Origin: Rubellimicrobium arenae
GTDB taxonomy: Bacteria; Pseudomonadota; Alphaproteobacteria; Rhodobacterales; Rhodobacteraceae
Length of the DNA: 64,000 bases
Assembly (NCBI RefSeq): GCF_017916275.1
Contig: NZ_JAFMST010000003.1
Coordinates: 310,001-374,000, forward strand
Direction: 5' to 3'
The notes under the pieces were generated by a model. It was not told where the DNA came from and made no database searches. It saw only the letters and a list, made by a program, of their open reading frames with translations. The first letter of the stretch is position 1, and every line of letters begins with the position of its first letter. Position numbers and translations under genes: made by a program. Shown in pieces: positions 57,273 through 64,000 of the stretch.

Positions 57273-58283
57273 TTACGGGCCCGGAGGAGGTCCGCAGCTG
57301 TCCCCCAGAACCAGGGTCGGCTGGAACACCACATGCCGCGGTTCCTCGTTCGTGCGCCGGTGGATGCGGTCGATCAGAAGCCGCACGGCCTCGTTGACCA
57401 TGTCCGTGGCGGGATGCTCGGTGCGGGTCAGGCGGGGGCGGAACACACGGCTTCCCGGGATGGTGTCGGTGGAGGCGATCGAGACGTCGGCCGGGCAGCG
57501 CAGGCCAAGATCTGCCAAGGCCCGCAGCACGCCCAGGGCCATGACCCCGTTGGCCACGTAAAGCCCGGTGGGTCGGTCCGCGCGCGCAAGCATGTCGCGC
57601 GCCTGGGCGTATGCGACCTCTTCCCGGAACTCGCCGCTGCGCAGATGCTCCGGCCGCAGGCTGAGTCCCCGGGCGGCAAGGGCCTCCATCATGCCGGTCC
57701 GTCGCGCGCGTCCGGTCGAGAGGTGATCGGGGCCGGTGATTGCTCCGATCCGGACATGCCCAAGGTCGGCCAGGTAGTTGGTGACGTCCGCCGCCGCCTG
57801 ACGGTTGTCGAGCGTCACCGTGTCGAGGCTCAGCCCTTCGACGGACCGACCGAACAGAACCACGGGTCGGCCCTTGGCCAGGCCGGAACGGGCATAGCGC
57901 TTCGGGTCGTCGGCGGGAACAAAGATCAGGCCGTCGCATGAAAGGCGCGCGACCCGGTCCAGGATGCGCCGTTCGTTCTCGGGCGTTTCGTCGCTGTTGA
58001 AGACGACGAGCGATCGGTCCCGCGCACCGACCGCAGCCTCGGCCGCGCAGACGATCCGGGCGTAGAAGGGACTGGCCAGGTCGGCCACCACCAGCGCGAC
58101 GAGGCCGCTTGCCCCGCGCTTGAGGCTGCGGGCGGCCTGGGACGGCGCATAGTCCAGCGTCGCGATGGCAGCTTCGACCCGGGCCTTGAGGGTGGGGCTC
58201 ACATAGGCTGTGCCATTCAGCACGGCCGAGACGGTTGCCGTCGAAACCCGCGCCGCCTTTGCCACGTCCTTGATCGTCGTCAT
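57273..58283 (-). CDS. LacI-family transcriptional repressor
   Basis: 336 residues. The N-terminal LacI helix-turn-helix is TTIKDVAKAARVSTATVSAVLNGTAYVSPTLKARVEAAIATLDYAPS with the hinge QAARSLKRG. The periplasmic-binding-protein-like effector domain has LVALVVADLASPFYARIV, GLIFVPAD, VTLDNRQAAADVTNYLADLGHVRIGAITGP and DVSIASTDTIPGSRVFRPRLTR. It is divergent from a ribose-type ABC transporter operon with LacI-like dyads between them, so it most likely represses that operon and itself until the transported ligand binds. Confidence 0.92.
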   Translation of the reverse strand: MTTIKDVAKAARVSTATVSAVLNGTAYVSPTLKARVEAAIATLDYAPSQAARSLKRGASGLVALVVADLASPFYARIVCAAEAAVGARDRSLVVFNSDETPENERRILDRVARLSCDGLIFVPADDPKRYARSGLAKGRPVVLFGRSVEGLSLDTVTLDNRQAAADVTNYLADLGHVRIGAITGPDHLSTGRARRTGMMEALAARGLSLRPEHLRSGEFREEVAYAQARDMLARADRPTGLYVANGVMALGVLRALADLGLRCPADVSIASTDTIPGSRVFRPRLTRTEHPATDMVNEAVRLLIDRIHRRTNEEPRHVVFQPTLVLGDSCGPPPGP

Positions 58284-58289
58284 CGGTCC

Positions 58290-58309
58290 TCAGCGAAACG
58301 CTTCGCTGA
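58290..58309. promoter_or_regulatory. Perfect LacI-type operator
   Basis: Arms TCAGCGAA and TTCGCTGA flank ACGC, an 8+4+8 perfect dyad just upstream of the lacI-type gene start and on its leader side. The core GAAACGCTTC has the CG-centred pattern of LacI-family operators. Confidence 0.75.
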
Positions 58310-58323
58310 AGCTATGCGGAATT

Positions 58324-58343
58324 TTCTCATGCTGCAATGAGAA
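58324..58343. promoter_or_regulatory. Second inverted repeat in the regulator/transporter intergenic region
   Basis: TTCTCAT and ATGAGAA form a perfect 7+6+7 dyad unlike the two LacI-type sites. It may bind another regulator or form part of a promoter or hairpin. Confidence 0.4.
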
Positions 58344-58378
58344 CGGCGCTTGAAAGCCGGCTAGATATGCGGAAGCTT

Positions 58379-58394
58379 GGCGAAACGGTTAGCC
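58379..58394. promoter_or_regulatory. Imperfect LacI-type operator near the transporter operon
   Basis: GGCGAAACGGTTAGCC is a 16-base imperfect dyad sharing the GCGAAACG core with the operator at 58290. It lies about 50 bases upstream of the binding-protein gene start. Confidence 0.6.
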
Positions 58395-58443
58395 AACCCG
58401 CCGGATCGAGCGGGGTGCACCGGAGCCACTGGGGAGGATGAAC

Positions 58444-59388
58444 ATGACGCGCACTCGACTGACGCTTGCGGTGGTGACCGGAATGGCCGCCGCCCAGGCC
58501 GCCGCCGCACAGGACGCGCCGCTCGTGGGGATCGTTTCGATCTCGGCGACCGAGGCCAACAACGTCCGTTACATCCAGGGCGCGACAGCCGCGGCCGAGG
58601 AACTCGGATGGCAGGTCTCGGTGATCGACGCCGCAGGAAGCGCCGATCAGGCCAATTCGGCCATCCAGAACTTCGCCCAGCTTGGCGCGACCGCGATCGT
58701 GGACATGGTCTTTCCGTTCTCGTCCATCGGGGCGGGGCTGGACGCCGCCTCGCAGGCCGGCATCCCGGTCGTGACCTGGGGCGGAGGACTGGGCAGCACG
58801 GTCGCCGCCACGAACGGATCGGGCGGACCGATGGCCGAGCCGGTGATCCAGGAGATGCTGGACGCCATGCCGGACGGCGGCAGCGTCCTTGCCCTGACCT
58901 ACCGGACCGGCGAAGTCTGCCGGAACCGCGAGGCGGTGCTGGACCAGATGCTGAGCGGGCGCAGCGACATCGAGGTCACCAAGAACGAGGTCCGGATTCC
59001 CGGCTTCTTCGAGGATGGCGCCCAATACGCCAATGCCTGGCTCGCCTCGCATCCTCCGGGGGACGGCGCGCTGGCGATCTGGGGTTGCTGGGACGATCCG
59101 GCGATCGGCGCCATCGGCACGCTGCGGCAGCAGGGACGCGATGATGTCCGGGTCTATGGCGTGAACGGCAACGCACAGGCGCTGGAGAACATCCGCAACG
59201 GGCACATGGACGCGACGGCCTGGCAGGACAGCTACTCCGAAGGCTACAACATGGTGAAGCTGCTCGAGGACATCGTCGCGGCCGGGGATAACTGGACCCC
59301 GCGGGCCGAGGAGGTGCCGGCCGTGCTGGTAAATGCCGGCAACGTCGAGGACTTCCTTGCCGAGCACCCCGAGGCGCTGGGCCAGTGA
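58444..59388 (+). CDS. Ribose-type ABC transporter substrate-binding protein
   Basis: 314 residues of the periplasmic-binding type 4 (RbsB-like) family. Signal peptide TRTRLTLAVVTGMAAAQAAAAQ, then LVGIVSISATEANNVRYIQGATAAAEELGW, GSADQANSAIQNFAQLGATAIVDMVFPFS, WGCWDDPAIGAIGTLRQQGRDDVRVYGVNG. The second ATG at 58444 is chosen because GGGGAGG lies 6 bases before it, while the ATG at 58438 abuts that site. The ligand is unknown; the family binds sugars, polyols and AI-2-type molecules. First gene of a four-gene operon. Confidence 0.9.
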   Translation: MTRTRLTLAVVTGMAAAQAAAAQDAPLVGIVSISATEANNVRYIQGATAAAEELGWQVSVIDAAGSADQANSAIQNFAQLGATAIVDMVFPFSSIGAGLDAASQAGIPVVTWGGGLGSTVAATNGSGGPMAEPVIQEMLDAMPDGGSVLALTYRTGEVCRNREAVLDQMLSGRSDIEVTKNEVRIPGFFEDGAQYANAWLASHPPGDGALAIWGCWDDPAIGAIGTLRQQGRDDVRVYGVNGNAQALENIRNGHMDATAWQDSYSEGYNMVKLLEDIVAAGDNWTPRAEEVPAVLVNAGNVEDFLAEHPEALGQ

Positions 59389-59401
59389 GGACCGGCGTCC
59401 C

Positions 59402-60976
59402 GTGCAGATGAGCGCCATGGAAGTCGGGCAGGGGCGGCGGGCCGTCCCGCCCCTGCTGGCGGTGTCCGGCCTCGCCAAGGCCTATGGCGGCGCGCGGGCG
59501 CTTTCCAGAGCATCCCTCGAGATTGGCCCCGGCGAAGTGCATGGCCTCGTCGGCGCGAACGGTGCGGGCAAGTCCACCTTCATCAAGTGCCTGGCCGGTC
59601 TGACCCGGCCCGATTCCGGCACCATCGAGATCGATGGCCAGCCGGTCGGGCCGCTGACCCCCCAGGCCGCGGGCGACCTCGGGATGAGCTTCATCCATCA
59701 GGAGCTCGCCTTCGTGCCCGGCATGACCGTTCTCCAGAACATCATGCTGGGGCTGCCCAAGAAGACGCGGTGGGGCATGGTGGACTGGGCCGCGATCGCC
59801 CGCGACGTGGCCCCGGTCGCGGCACGGACAGGGATCACGGCGCCGCTGTCCGCCAACGTGAAGGGCCTGTCCATCGCCGAGAACTGGCTCATCAACATTT
59901 GCCGGGCCCAGATGAGGCGGGCCAGGCTGATCGTCATGGACGAGCCCACGGCGTCGCTGTCCGCCAAGGAAGCGGGCGCCCTGTTCCAGGCCATCCGCGA
60001 CCTGTCCTCGGCGGGCGTGGCGGTTCTTTATGTCTCGCACCGTCTGGACGAGATCCTGGACCTGTGCGCTCGGGTCACGGTGTTTCGCGACGGGCAGAGC
60101 GTGGCCGAACTGTCCGGTGCCACGCTGACGCGCCGCAACCTCATCGACCAGATCGTCGGCGGGCGCCGCGCCGAAGCCGCGGCCAAGGTGGACCACACCC
60201 GACCGCAGGTGGTGCTGTCCGTGCGCAACCTGGCCCGCCCGCCGCGGGTCCATGGGGTCAGCTTCGACCTCCGCGCGGGCGAGGTGCTGGGCATCGGCGG
60301 CCTTGTCGGCGCCGGGCGGACCGAGCTGGCCCGGCTGATCTTCGGGGCCGACATGGCTCTGGCGGGCGAGATGCGGCTCAACGGGACCTCTTATGCCCCA
60401 CGCTCGCCCGCGGCGGCGGTCAAGGCCGGAGTGGGGCTCGTCCCGGAGGAGCGGCGCGCCGAGGCGCTGGTCCTGCCCAAGAGCGTGGCCTTCAACCTGC
60501 AGATCGCCAATCTCGCCAAGGTGGTCCATGGCCGGGCGCTGCCCTTCGTCAGCACTCGCCGGCGCGAGGCGATGGCCCTTCGCATCATCCGCGACCTGGC
60601 CGTCAAAGTCCCAACCTCCGGCACGCCGGTCGAGCGGCTGAGCGGCGGCAACCAGCAGAAGGTGGTCATCGGCCGTTGGCTCCTGCGCGCGCCCGGGGTG
60701 CTGATCCTGGACGAGCCGACGCGCGGCGTGGACATCGGGGCGCGCGCCGAGATCCATCGCTTGATCCGCGATCTGGCCGCCAGCGGGACCGCCATCATCG
60801 TGATCTCGTCCGAGCCGGACGAACTGCCCGACCTTGCCGACCGGGTGCTGGTCATGGCCGAGGGGCGCGTCGTGCGCGAGCTCACCGGCTCCGGGATCAC
60901 GCGGCAGGCCATCGTCGCCGCGAGCTATGCCGGACAGGCCGACCATTCCGAAGCCCGCAACGGAGACCCGACATGA
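59402..60976 (+). CDS. Ribose-type ABC transporter ATP-binding protein
   Basis: 524 residues with two ABC domains as in RbsA/XylG. The first has Walker A GANGAGKST, a Walker B region LIVMDEPTAS and a degenerate signature (LSIAENWLINICRAQ). The second has an altered Walker A (GGLVGAGRTE), signature LSGGNQQKVVIGRWL and Walker B VLILDEPTRGVDI. This one-active-site asymmetry is usual for the class. GTG 59402 has AGGA ten bases upstream; the ATG at 59408 is the alternative. It overlaps the permease start by 4 bases. Confidence 0.91.
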   Translation: MQMSAMEVGQGRRAVPPLLAVSGLAKAYGGARALSRASLEIGPGEVHGLVGANGAGKSTFIKCLAGLTRPDSGTIEIDGQPVGPLTPQAAGDLGMSFIHQELAFVPGMTVLQNIMLGLPKKTRWGMVDWAAIARDVAPVAARTGITAPLSANVKGLSIAENWLINICRAQMRRARLIVMDEPTASLSAKEAGALFQAIRDLSSAGVAVLYVSHRLDEILDLCARVTVFRDGQSVAELSGATLTRRNLIDQIVGGRRAEAAAKVDHTRPQVVLSVRNLARPPRVHGVSFDLRAGEVLGIGGLVGAGRTELARLIFGADMALAGEMRLNGTSYAPRSPAAAVKAGVGLVPEERRAEALVLPKSVAFNLQIANLAKVVHGRALPFVSTRRREAMALRIIRDLAVKVPTSGTPVERLSGGNQQKVVIGRWLLRAPGVLILDEPTRGVDIGARAEIHRLIRDLAASGTAIIVISSEPDELPDLADRVLVMAEGRVVRELTGSGITRQAIVAASYAGQADHSEARNGDPT

Positions 60977-61968
60977 CCGACGCCACCGTCCGTCCACGCC
61001 TCCTGTCCCCCAGGACCAAGGTCTGGCTGGGCACCTTTGCGCGATGGGGCACGATCCTCGGCCTCGCCGCGATGATCCTGGCCTTCGCCTGGCTGTCTCC
61101 GCGGGCCTTTCCGACGGTGCTGAACTTCACCAACGTCCTGAACCAGGCGTCTCTCACCATGATCATCGCGGGCGGGCTGACCGTGGCTGTTCTGGTGGGC
61201 GAGCTGGACCTGTCCATCGGCTTCGCGGCAAGCCTGCATGGCGTGCTGGTGACGGGGCTGATCGTGGCCAGCGGCCTGCCCATTCCGCTGGCGGTGGTCC
61301 TGATCCTGGCGGCGGGCGCGCTGGTGGGCCTCGTGAACGGCCTGATCGTCACCAAGATGAAGGTGAATTCGGTCATCGCCACGCTGGGCGTCGGGACGGT
61401 GCTGACCGGCCTCAGCTTTGCCTACTCGTCCGGGGTGCCGATCGTGTCGGGGGTGCCCGAGGCCTTTCTCCAGATCTCCCTCGGGCGCTGGCTGTTCGGC
61501 ATCCCCAACAACATCGTGCTGATGGTCCTCGTGCTCGGGGGGCTTTGGCTGCTCGTGGAGCGCACCGCCCTCGGTCAGGAGATCCAGGCGGTCGGGGGCA
61601 ACCCTGCTGCCGCCCGCCTGGCCGGCATCGACATCGACCGCATCAAGATCATCGGCTTCGTGATCTCCGGGGTCTGCGCGGCGCTGGTCGGCATCCTTCT
61701 CGCCTCGCGGCTGGGCAGCGGGACGACGAGCGCGGCCGACAGCTATCTCCTGACCGCCTTCGCCTCGGTCTTCCTGGGATCGGCGACCCTGCGCGACGGC
61801 GAATTTCACATCCTGGGCACGCTGGTCGGCGCGTTGATCATCGCCTTCGGCTTCAATGGCCTCAACATCTTCGGCGCGCCGACCTGGTCCCAGTACGTCT
61901 TTCAGGGCTCGATCCTGATCATCGCCGTCGGGTTGTCGAGCCTGGGACGGCATCTCGCTGAAAGCTGA
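60973..61968 (+). CDS. Ribose-type ABC transporter permease
   Basis: 331 residues, about 8-10 transmembrane helices (e.g. GTILGLAAMILAFAWLS, SLTMIIAGGLTVAVLV, ILAAGALVGLVNGLIV, FVISGVCAALVGILLAS, LVGALIIAFGFNGLNIF). The RbsC/BPD_transp_2 signatures GGLTVAVLVGELDLSIGFAASL and AVGGNPAAARLAGIDIDRIK are clear. Only one permease gene is present, so it probably forms a homodimer. The start overlaps the ATPase stop (ATGA). 25 bases separate it from the lactonase gene. Confidence 0.92.
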   Translation: MTDATVRPRLLSPRTKVWLGTFARWGTILGLAAMILAFAWLSPRAFPTVLNFTNVLNQASLTMIIAGGLTVAVLVGELDLSIGFAASLHGVLVTGLIVASGLPIPLAVVLILAAGALVGLVNGLIVTKMKVNSVIATLGVGTVLTGLSFAYSSGVPIVSGVPEAFLQISLGRWLFGIPNNIVLMVLVLGGLWLLVERTALGQEIQAVGGNPAAARLAGIDIDRIKIIGFVISGVCAALVGILLASRLGSGTTSAADSYLLTAFASVFLGSATLRDGEFHILGTLVGALIIAFGFNGLNIFGAPTWSQYVFQGSILIIAVGLSSLGRHLAES

Positions 61969-61993
61969 CACGATTCGTCGAAAGGAGCCGCAC

Positions 61994-62830
61994 ATGACCG
62001 CCGCGCCGACCTGGGAGGTGTTCGTCCTCGAATACGCGAGGGCCAAAGACCAGCCCGTGGACAGCCTGATCAACGGCACCCACGACGATGGCCTGATGGA
62101 CACGCCGTTTGCCTTCGTGTTCGCGCGGTCAGGCGGGCGCAATGTGCTGGTGGACACCGGGTTCATGCGCGAAGGCATCGGCGCCGAGATGTCGGAGCGG
62201 TTCAACGTGCCGGAGTGGATCAGCCCCCTCCGCCTCCTGGCCGAGCTGGGCGTCGCACCCGAAGACGTGACCGACATCGTCCTGAGCCATGCCCATTTCG
62301 ACCACATGGGGTCGATCCACAAGTTCCCCCGGGCCCGCCTCTACATTCAGAAAAGCGAGCTGCTCTCGTGGCACGAGGCGATGGCTCTGCCCCGGCAGTT
62401 CGGCTACCTGACCGCGATCATCAACCCCGACGACCTCCGTTCCATGTTCGACGCCTCGGTCGAGCATCGGGTGACCCTGCTGGATGGGGACCGGGACAAC
62501 CTGCTCCCCGGCCTGCACGCGCGGTTCGGTCCGGGGCACACCATCGGGCAGCAGTTCGTCGTGCTGGAAACCGCGCGGGGCAACGTCGTCGTGTCGGGCG
62601 ATTGCGTCTATGGGGCCAGGAACCTCACCGGTCATTCGCATGACGGCGTCTACGTCCCGCTCAACAACGCGATCGGCAGCGTGTGGGACCAGCTCAGGAC
62701 GATGGACCGGATCAACGACGCCATCCAGGGCGACCTCGGCCGGCTCATCATCCTGCACGACGTGGAGCGCTGGAAGGACATGCCGGTCCAGGCCGAGGTC
62801 GAAGGCTTCAAGATCGTCCGGGCCGCCTGA
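61994..62830 (+). CDS. Metallo-beta-lactamase-fold lactonase (AHL-lactonase-like)
   Basis: 278 residues with the dizinc site H99-x-H101-x-D103-H104 (SHAHFDHMG), H182 (GPGHTIGQ), D203 (SGDCVYG) and H255 (ILHDVERW), the full set for AiiA/AttM-type lactonases. No signal peptide, so it is cytosolic. An AAAGGAG site lies ~6 bases before the ATG. As the only enzyme of the ABC operon it probably opens the lactone ring of the imported ligand or a related metabolite; acyl-homoserine lactone, gamma-butyrolactone and sugar lactones are all possible. Confidence 0.88.
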   Translation: MTAAPTWEVFVLEYARAKDQPVDSLINGTHDDGLMDTPFAFVFARSGGRNVLVDTGFMREGIGAEMSERFNVPEWISPLRLLAELGVAPEDVTDIVLSHAHFDHMGSIHKFPRARLYIQKSELLSWHEAMALPRQFGYLTAIINPDDLRSMFDASVEHRVTLLDGDRDNLLPGLHARFGPGHTIGQQFVVLETARGNVVVSGDCVYGARNLTGHSHDGVYVPLNNAIGSVWDQLRTMDRINDAIQGDLGRLIILHDVERWKDMPVQAEVEGFKIVRAA

Positions 62831-62907: not shown

Positions 62908-63546
62908 TTACCAGCGCCCGCAAACCCCTTCGCCGATCAGGATCTCGCCCACGTTCTCCCCGGAGGCGGAGAGGGAGCAGGTTCCAAGCTCCCAGTCCTG
63001 TCCCCGCCGTCCATCGAGGGTGCAGGTGACGGCCTGCCCCTGCACGAGGTCGCGCATGAAGAGCGCGGCGCTCCGGCCCTCGTCGGTGCCGATCTTGTCG
63101 CAGTCGAGGTTCGCGAGCCGGACCGGCACGCCCGCCACCTCGATGGTGCCGCCGTCACGAACATCGGTCACCCGGCCCTGGATATCGAAGCCCGCCGAGC
63201 CTGACGGGGGAGTCGGGCGGTCGGGGGCCTGCGCAGGCGCGACGGGCGCGGCCGGGGACCGCGCCGCTGCGCCAGGAGCCGGGTCGTCGGCGACTGCCGG
63301 ACGGTCCGCACGGCTCGAAAGGGCGGCGGGCCACCAGCCTTCCAGTCGGTCGAAGCCGCCCCCCAGGTTGTAGGCGGTGAGGCCGCCTGCGCAAAGAAGA
63401 AGGAGGACGCTGGCCAGATTGGGGCGGCGACTGGGCGTGCGGCCCCGCGACGTCGTCCGGGTCCGGGCCCTTGGACGCCGGGTCACGGCTGCACCTCGCC
63501 GGATGGCGTTGCGGCAGACGGCCGAAGGCGGATTGGACGACCGCAT
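62908..63546 (-). CDS. Membrane-anchored staphylococcal-nuclease-fold protein, degenerate active site
   Basis: 212 residues from the ATG at 63544-63546 (AGGA site 5 bases upstream). A basic cytosolic start (~1-42) precedes a transmembrane helix (LASVLLLLCAGGLTAYNL, ~44-61) and a Pro/Ala-rich linker (~80-118). The C-terminal nuclease-like domain is GRVTDVRDGGTIEVAGVPVRLANLDCD...GENVGEILIGEGVCGRW. The second Asp of the usual DGDT is Gly and the second catalytic Arg is not evident, while the first Arg (PVRL) remains, so nuclease activity is doubtful. Convergent with the lactonase gene. Confidence 0.7.
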   Translation of the reverse strand: MRSSNPPSAVCRNAIRRGAAVTRRPRARTRTTSRGRTPSRRPNLASVLLLLCAGGLTAYNLGGGFDRLEGWWPAALSSRADRPAVADDPAPGAAARSPAAPVAPAQAPDRPTPPSGSAGFDIQGRVTDVRDGGTIEVAGVPVRLANLDCDKIGTDEGRSAALFMRDLVQGQAVTCTLDGRRGQDWELGTCSLSASGENVGEILIGEGVCGRW

Positions 63547-63680
63547 GTCCTTCCTGGTTCGCCAAGGGGATGACCAAGCCGGGAGCCGAGCCGCCGGACG
63601 CGCCCAGCGAGAGAAGCTGCCCTGCGGCCGAATGGCTGGAACGGGGTAGGGTCCACGTGGTCCTGATCGGTATCGCTCAT
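63483..63680 (-). CDS. Doubtful short ORF overlapping the nuclease-fold gene start
   Basis: 65 residues starting MSDTDQDHVDPTPFQPFGRR and turning Arg/Gly/Leu-rich. An AAGGAG lies 12 bases upstream of the ATG and the first ~25 residues look protein-like, but the rest overlaps the next gene by 64 bases and may be read in the wrong frame. No domain is recognised. Confidence 0.25.
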   Translation of the reverse strand: MSDTDQDHVDPTPFQPFGRRAASLAGRVRRLGSRLGHPLGEPGRTCGRPIRLRPSAATPSGEVQP

Positions 63681-64000
63681 CGCCCCGGTCGTCTCCTTGC
63701 CAAGTCGAACGCCTTTGGGAGAGGCGCTGCGGTCCTGAGGTCATCTTGGACGTCTCGCGGCTGTTGGGCCAGTCATCCGATGGATCGGTTGGCGCCAGGG
63801 CAGGGGGCTCGGCGCGACCTGGCTGAGCGGCGCCTGTTTCGGTGGCCAAGGCACGTGCCGGTGATCAGGTCAGGATCTGTCACCAGGTCCGTCACGGCCC
63901 CGCCCTTTCGACCGCCTGCCTGCCCGCCGTCCCCGAACCTGACGCGGGTGCCCGAGCTGAGCCCGCCTCGGGATCGTTTCGCGGGCGAAAACGGCAGGTT
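63547..64000. other. Window end without a confident gene (~450 bases)
   Basis: Apart from the doubtful 65-residue frame, no coding region, RNA gene or strong hairpin is supported. The minus-strand frame of the nuclease-fold gene stays open to 63849 but has no family-like content. A gene starting beyond the window may have its promoter here. Confidence 0.5.

Follow-up and report, generated by a model that had tools for sequence, protein, structure and literature searches.

A LacI-associated CUT2 importer paired with a lactonase-clade hydrolase: a candidate lactone uptake unit of Rubellimicrobium arenae and other Alphaproteobacteria

Several described bacterial systems resemble a five-gene unit of Rubellimicrobium arenae in which a CUT2-type ABC importer is encoded together with a metallo-β-lactamase (MBL)-fold hydrolase and a divergent LacI-family regulator; the unit lies in a stretch of 64,000 nucleotides (contig NZ_JAFMST010000003.1, positions 310,001 to 374,000; hereafter the window, from whose first letter its coordinates are counted). 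The Lsr system joins a CUT2-type importer to intracellular processing of the imported autoinducer 2 (AI-2) signal under a local repressor, vitamin B6 degradation has several further enzymes besides the MBL-fold 4-pyridoxolactonase, and BlcR, which accompanies blcABC (attKLM) in Agrobacterium, is a repressor of the IclR type. We know of no described importer dedicated to the active uptake of a lactone, and neither such an importer nor a paper on this five-gene unit was found among the titles and opening abstract lines of the papers listed in an open-access library. In blcABC, according to PMC5924552, a locally repressed metallo-lactonase opens a small lactone, and the operon carries gamma-butyrolactone on to gamma-hydroxybutyrate (GHB) and succinic semialdehyde. 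A LacI-regulon survey (PMC4052901), queried by term search only, returned no mention of a lactonase or lactamase.

The initial annotation of the window had proposed an operon of binding protein, ATPase, permease and dizinc MBL protein with a divergent LacI repressor, and open reading frames (ORFs), Pfam matches and residues all bear this layout out. The whole unit spans 57273–62830:

57273–58283, minus strand: LacI-family regulator, divergent from the operon (Pfam LacI and Peripla_BP_3); its orthologues beside complete cassettes are 59–67% identical
58293–58306, no strand: operator-like site 1, GCGAAACGCTTCGC, 9 bases upstream of the LacI start codon; an exact match in the own-genome pattern search
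58380–58393, no strand: operator-like site 2, GCGAAACGGTTAGC, 87 bases from site 1; likewise an exact match in that search
58438 (likelier start 58444)–59388, plus strand: periplasmic binding protein of the CUT2/ribose-binding-protein fold (Pfam Peripla_BP_4), with a signal peptide by eye
about 59408–60976, exact start uncertain, plus strand: CUT2 double ATPase with two ABC_tran stretches; nearest NCBIfam families AraG and RbsA, below cut-off
60973–61968, plus strand: single CUT2 permease (BPD_transp_2); nearest NCBIfam family ribose permease, below cut-off
61994–62830, plus strand: MBL-fold hydrolase of the N-acyl homoserine lactone (AHL)-lactonase clade (Pfam Lactamase_B), last gene of the operon

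The likelier start of the binding protein is chosen from the position of the ribosome-binding site, the ATPase stop and permease start overlap as ATGA, and the MBL gene begins 25 bases past the permease behind a ribosome-binding-like AAAGGAG. An RbsB-like binding protein, a fused double ATPase and a BPD_transp_2 permease together place the importer in CUT2. None of the five proteins reaches the cut-off of any NCBIfam family listed for it, the listing for the ATPase covering the best 25 of 189.

By the tests made, the unit belongs to none of the blc, B6 degradation or Lsr systems. Unlike blc, it has an ABC importer and lacks the further enzymes of that operon, and its hydrolase has low similarity to AttM (53 bits against a cut-off of 390). 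The hydrolase shares its fold with 4-pyridoxolactonase (4keq, 3aj3; TM-score about 0.75), and the NCBIfam family for the ATPase of a CUT2-like putative B6 transporter also matches the window ATPase, but both fall below cut-off, the enzyme at 53.5 of 325 bits and the ATPase at 322.8 of 670. In contrast to Lsr, the window has one permease gene and the operon is without LsrK, LsrF and LsrG, while the ATPase scores 379.8 of 586 bits to LsrA, and ATPase and permease stay below the LsrA, LsrC and LsrD cut-offs. The coupling of a CUT2 importer to a catabolic enzyme is a known principle, of which this composition is a new variant.

The unit is strongly conserved. A scan seeded on the MBL protein, with one genome per species, gave 169 stretches with a relative, of which the best 80 were kept as 79 loci and joined by three plasmid records; 76 of these loci have an MBL identity of at least 50%, and removal of L001 (the window itself) and of L003 (identical in sequence to L068) leaves 74 distinct loci. 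Genes in these neighbourhoods were called mechanically as ORFs of at least 100 amino acids, so that shorter genes could escape. Of the 74 loci, 66 contain the whole set of genes, and 65 of these keep the same order and strands, the exception (L053) having its transporter on the opposite side of LacI; three of the eight incomplete loci (L006, L056, L057) are cut by a contig end. The five genes yield congruent distance matrices (Mantel r 0.69–0.83 for 64 sequences vs at most 0.20 in 500 permutations), and as judged from these sequences the genes share one history. The constant order and the agreeing matrices argue that the arrangement is not due to chance, and the five genes very probably form one functional unit, a coupling about as well supported as genome comparison allows. 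No sixth conserved gene was found by clustering the neighbouring ORFs; two clusters, one of short-chain dehydrogenases/reductases (SDRs; 16 loci) and one of ABC ATPases (22 loci), vary in position and were taken as unrelated.

Complete loci span at least 18 named genera (counted over the record titles of 46 of the 66), and by name the carriers among the best 80 of the 169 stretches are mostly Rhizobiales, including Mesorhizobium, Rhizobium, Aureimonas, Kaistia and Bauldia. The initial annotation had looked to Rhodobacterales for this neighbourhood; the unit is indeed conserved, but Rhodobacterales are not its main range, as among 394 genomes of the window's family the MBL protein occurs at E ≤ 1e-40 only in R. 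arenae and one other.

Because the 74-locus set was seeded on the MBL protein, a second search was run from the transporter side. At class level (385 genomes), matches to the binding protein at E ≤ 1e-60 occur in three genomes, R. arenae and two others, and the MBL protein is found in the same three; its gene in the two others is about 2.6 kb distant and on the same strand, which leaves space for the ATPase and permease. Among 398 genomes of the phylum, matches at E ≤ 1e-45 are confined to R. arenae and one further genome (G842), which has the full cassette, and 72,556 plasmid records yielded three orthologues of 74–76% identity, each with an MBL gene beside the transporter. These searches partly overlap the MBL-seeded set (G753 is L007, G842 is L043, and the plasmids were already counted), so that only G677 is new. 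The tie between importer and hydrolase on which the initial annotation rested holds up, as the MBL gene lies nearby in all six binding-protein orthologues outside the window; a fourth, more distant plasmid match, from Embleya (binding protein 38% identical), has no MBL match in its 20.9 kb stretch.

The active site of the hydrolase is intact throughout. All 75 sequences (the window plus the 74 loci) share the dizinc ligands H99, H101, D103, H104, H182 and D203, and also Y206, which aligns with the AiiA tyrosine, while H255 is identical in 74, the remaining row (L070) having an alignment gap there; the protein thus carries the full set of lactonase-clade residues (HxHxDH, H, D, H and the active-site tyrosine). 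Its predicted model (pLDDT 93.7) best matches PDB entry 8x78 (TM-score 0.86, rmsd 2.6, 25–26% identity), titled as an AHL lactonase of Pseudomonas poae, on which a literature search found nothing beyond the PDB title, and further fold matches include AiiA-type lactonases, methyl parathion hydrolases and 4-pyridoxolactonase (TM-score about 0.7–0.75). The NCBIfam cut-offs for AiiA, AttM, AhlS, AidB, YtnP and 4-pyridoxolactonase all lie far above its scores (for AiiA, 54.6 bits against 375). By sequence, then, the protein is a lactonase-clade enzyme outside the characterised NCBIfam families, presumably with lactonase activity, and is probably cytosolic since no signal peptide is seen by eye. The unit would caution against taking the tag ‘N-acyl homoserine lactonase family’, which these proteins receive automatically, as a sign of quorum quenching.

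The binding protein points away from ribose. Its model (pLDDT 85.8) finds 4ry0, 3l49 and 2ioy as best Foldseek matches at 22–24% identity, and the protein is strikingly conserved, with column identity averaging 78% in an alignment of 33 sequences. In a profile alignment to 2ioy, with the ribose contacts and numbering of E. coli RbsB, N13 becomes E39, F15/F16 become N41/N42, N190 becomes W218 and D215 becomes N243; R141 is retained as R162, and the D89/R90 positions fall in a gap. The replacing residues E39, N41, N42, W218 and N243 are invariant in the 33 sequences, and this exchange of ribose contacts for invariant residues argues for one shared ligand that would not be ribose-like.

Regulation appears equally dedicated. 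Each of the 67 regulator/operon gaps (66 loci and the window) contains a 14-base palindrome, close to GCTAAWCGNTTMGC, twice; the operator matrix was trained on these same gaps, and in letter-shuffled gaps (20 rounds) at least one site turned up in a mean of 1.5 and a maximum of 3 of the 67. A LacI helix-turn-helix (HTH), a periplasmic-type domain and palindromic sites at both its own and the target promoter make the regulator a putative local repressor of the LacI family, the sites being operator-like by sequence. Their spacing falls into groups of 87–90 (13 gaps), 96–100 (36), 107–110 (14) and 120–133 (4) bases, in steps of roughly one DNA turn, a hint that the DNA between the operators may loop. 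The periodicity is not sharp, with a mean vector of 0.74 at 10.5 bases, a top value of 0.79 near 11.1–11.4 and 0.57 at 9.0, and over the 16 distinct spacings it is 0.54 at 10.5, the related loci not being independent.

The exact operator pattern occurs in the R. arenae genome only at this promoter. A distal regulon was considered and rejected, as one-mismatch matches are near background (39 and 45 vs 37 and 39 for the reversed pattern), and in relatives no target gene recurs among the off-cassette matches inspected, a subset comprising 12 stretches drawn from matches in 24 other genomes and four stretches of the own genome, viewed by eye with mechanical ORFs. Most of these sites fall inside long ORFs; one (L139) lies beside another LacI gene and one (L140) between GntR-like and oxidoreductase-like genes. 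With no other exact own-genome site and no recurrent second target in relatives, the regulator seems to serve this cassette alone.

Related transporters keep other enzymatic company. In G842 (L157 6761–18564) and in L059 (12348–20805), a paralogous transporter with a binding protein 42% identical to that of the window occurs with two other MBL proteins (29–33% identical to the window's), and the same region holds two short-chain dehydrogenases, a 3-hydroxyisobutyrate-dehydrogenase-like protein and, by eye, an MmgE/PrpD-like protein. In Embleya (L152, an unannotated stretch), whose transporter shares 38% (binding protein), 49% (permease) and 46% (ATPase) identity with that of the window, an alpha/beta hydrolase replaces the MBL protein after the permease; its nearest NCBIfam families are PcaD-type 3-oxoadipate enol-lactonases, at 113 of 390 and 104 of 256 bits and hence below membership. 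The Embleya cluster also encodes an acyl-CoA synthetase, an ACAD11-like dehydrogenase (best solved relative ACAD11, E 1.3e-131) and a kinase whose best match is a bacterial phosphotransferase (6.8e-57), with a match to the kinase part of ACAD11 too (1.3e-43). In a permease tree the cassette copies, the second copy of G842 and Embleya form one clade (support 99/98) against nine other CUT2 permeases, although a long Methylocapsa branch, flagged as such, is drawn into the same clade and the placement of Embleya is not firm.

ACAD10/11 and the bacterial LvaA/LvaC act on 4-hydroxyacyl-CoAs, as stated in PMC11342911 and PMC12440821. Enzymes of the kind found in the lva levulinate/4-hydroxy acid pathway and in ACAD10/11 thus adjoin the Embleya sister transporter, but are not part of the window cassette. 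By analogy, the Embleya set is pointing to 4-hydroxy acids or their lactones, and a lactone ligand would fit it, since a 4-hydroxy acid closed into a ring is a gamma-lactone. The initial annotation had made ring opening the sole chemistry; this describes the cassette, in which no kinase, isomerase or dehydrogenase is conserved, but not the sister transporters, which carry dehydrogenases or CoA enzymes.

Taken together, uptake followed by hydrolysis of a lactone or other ester is the likely function, and we give a probability of roughly 55% to a scavenging role, in which a small ring ester, with a gamma-lactone as the likeliest kind, would be imported and opened for catabolism. We favour it because the five-gene unit is conserved from both the MBL and the transporter side without another conserved neighbour, because the hydrolase is nearest to AHL lactonases in sequence and fold, 4-pyridoxolactonase being close as well, and has the lactonase tyrosine, because two sister transporters pair with other lactonase-like hydrolases, because the ribose contacts of the binding protein are replaced by invariant residues, and because two operator sites stand in 67 of 67 gaps, with no further exact occurrence in the R. 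arenae genome. The binding protein would capture the ring ester in the periplasm, the CUT2 pump would import it and the dizinc enzyme would open the ring in the cytosol, where the charged hydroxy acid would be trapped and enter metabolism encoded elsewhere. LacI would sit on the two operators, perhaps looping the DNA, and keep importer and hydrolase off until ligand or product is present.

Other observations weigh against this reading. Five loci (L058, L065, L071, L073, L074) are true exceptions that have the MBL gene without this transporter, and the binding protein was not found in their genomes at E ≤ 1e-30, two of which (L058, L071) are metagenome-assembled genomes (MAGs) and possibly incomplete; in L073 a permease piece of 82% identity remains before the MBL gene, so that its cassette looks decayed. 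In Methylocapsa sp. S129 (L074 4241–10819), an MBL protein 62–63% identical follows a CUT2 pump of another kind, accompanied by the kinase genes DhaK and DhaL, and the enzyme is therefore not tied to this importer alone. Of 23 other carriers tested, only one has an ACAD11-like gene at E ≤ 1e-90; the R. arenae genome has none at that threshold, and the Embleya kinase has no match in it at E ≤ 1e-10 in a search without a positive control. By these results a 4-hydroxyacyl-CoA route is not general among carriers, and given the rarity of the ACAD11-like gene the Embleya analogy is not simply transferable to the window. MBL folds, moreover, also hydrolyse thioesters, phosphodiesters and other bonds.

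That functional breadth underlies one alternative, that the enzyme acts on another bond (a thioester, phosphodiester or cyclic amide) or clears a toxic by-product while the imported substrate is an ordinary carbohydrate. The failure to reach any NCBIfam lactonase cut-off would agree with this, but the lactonase tyrosine, the similarity to the lactonase clade and the fact that the Embleya sister transporter is accompanied by a lactonase-like hydrolase of unrelated type make it very unlikely. Uptake of an aldonolactone or sugar-acid lactone, a polyhydroxylated ligand yielding an aldonate for common kinases or dehydratases, would suit a CUT2 fold and LacI control, both typical of sugars, and the DhaK/DhaL genes beside the Methylocapsa hydrolase suggest polyol chemistry there; we nevertheless regard it as doubtful, given the replacement of several ribose-contact positions in the binding protein and the fatty-acid-type enzymes of the Embleya sister.

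The pump might instead withdraw a signal molecule, a lactone of the AHL, gamma-butyrolactone or furanone type, for the MBL enzyme to destroy, much as Lsr does for AI-2. In favour of this, the PDB title of the nearest solved relative names an AHL lactonase, catabolic genes are not conserved downstream, and in three Rhizobium loci a chemoreceptor (methyl-accepting chemotaxis) gene directly follows the MBL gene (L084 13041–15245, L022 5804–8002, L027 11086–13290), the L084 copy being 96% identical to those of L022 and L027. However, the examined stretches of five other Rhizobium loci (L034, L042, L046, L051, L052) have no match to that chemoreceptor, the enzyme scores far below the AiiA and AttM cut-offs, and common AHLs presumably need no pump to cross membranes. 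We therefore consider signal interception unlikely and prefer a nutrient as the substrate. The initial annotation's core, an importer coupled to a lactonase-clade hydrolase under a local LacI, stands, but none of its specific ligands is supported; a quorum signal is not favoured, while a butyrolactone-type compound or an aldonolactone may be the ligand.

If the lactone-scavenging reading holds, a wider picture may be tentatively drawn, with rather less confidence: a sugar-type pump family could have been repurposed for lactones, its binding proteins recognising a ring ester and each subfamily being independently paired with a different lactonase (one MBL protein in the window's form, two other MBL proteins, and a PcaD-like alpha/beta hydrolase), and the alphaproteobacterial form might be a minimal module that moves as a block under its own LacI control and harvests a common plant or microbial lactone. 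The unit is carried by many bacteria associated with soil and plants, in which it appears built to import and hydrolyse a small ring-shaped ester, and as a single-enzyme unit of at least 18 named genera it can be tested directly through the ligand of one binding protein.

The history of the cassette in R. arenae may include transfer. The nearest relatives of its MBL protein are from an unclassified soil MAG, Pleomorphomonas and Taklimakanibacter (75–77%), with the Rhodobacterales copies (L065, L066, L068) at only 56–60%, and by distance alone horizontal acquisition is suggested; the other four genes have their nearest relatives in different loci, and the permease tree leaves the position of the window copy open. 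The upstream MscS-like gene has no match in a genome of the same genus (G291) in a search without a positive control, so that an empty site, and hence an insertion, was not demonstrable.

Among single loci, a Mesorhizobium MAG (L037 10001–10807) has an MBL copy with an internal stop together with strong matches for the other cassette genes, and in Aliiruegeria lutimaris (L065 4462–10819) the MBL gene follows TctC-like binding protein, amidohydrolase-like and aldolase-like genes (ORFs by eye), a different pathway context. In the window, the next clear ORF past the MBL gene (62908–63849, minus strand) has by eye the look of a thermonuclease-type protein. At about 4–11 kb past the cassette, beyond the window end (L146 12209–18828), there are by eye a trehalose-synthesis-like gene pair, an amylomaltase-like gene and another LacI gene with a divergent CUT2-type binding protein.

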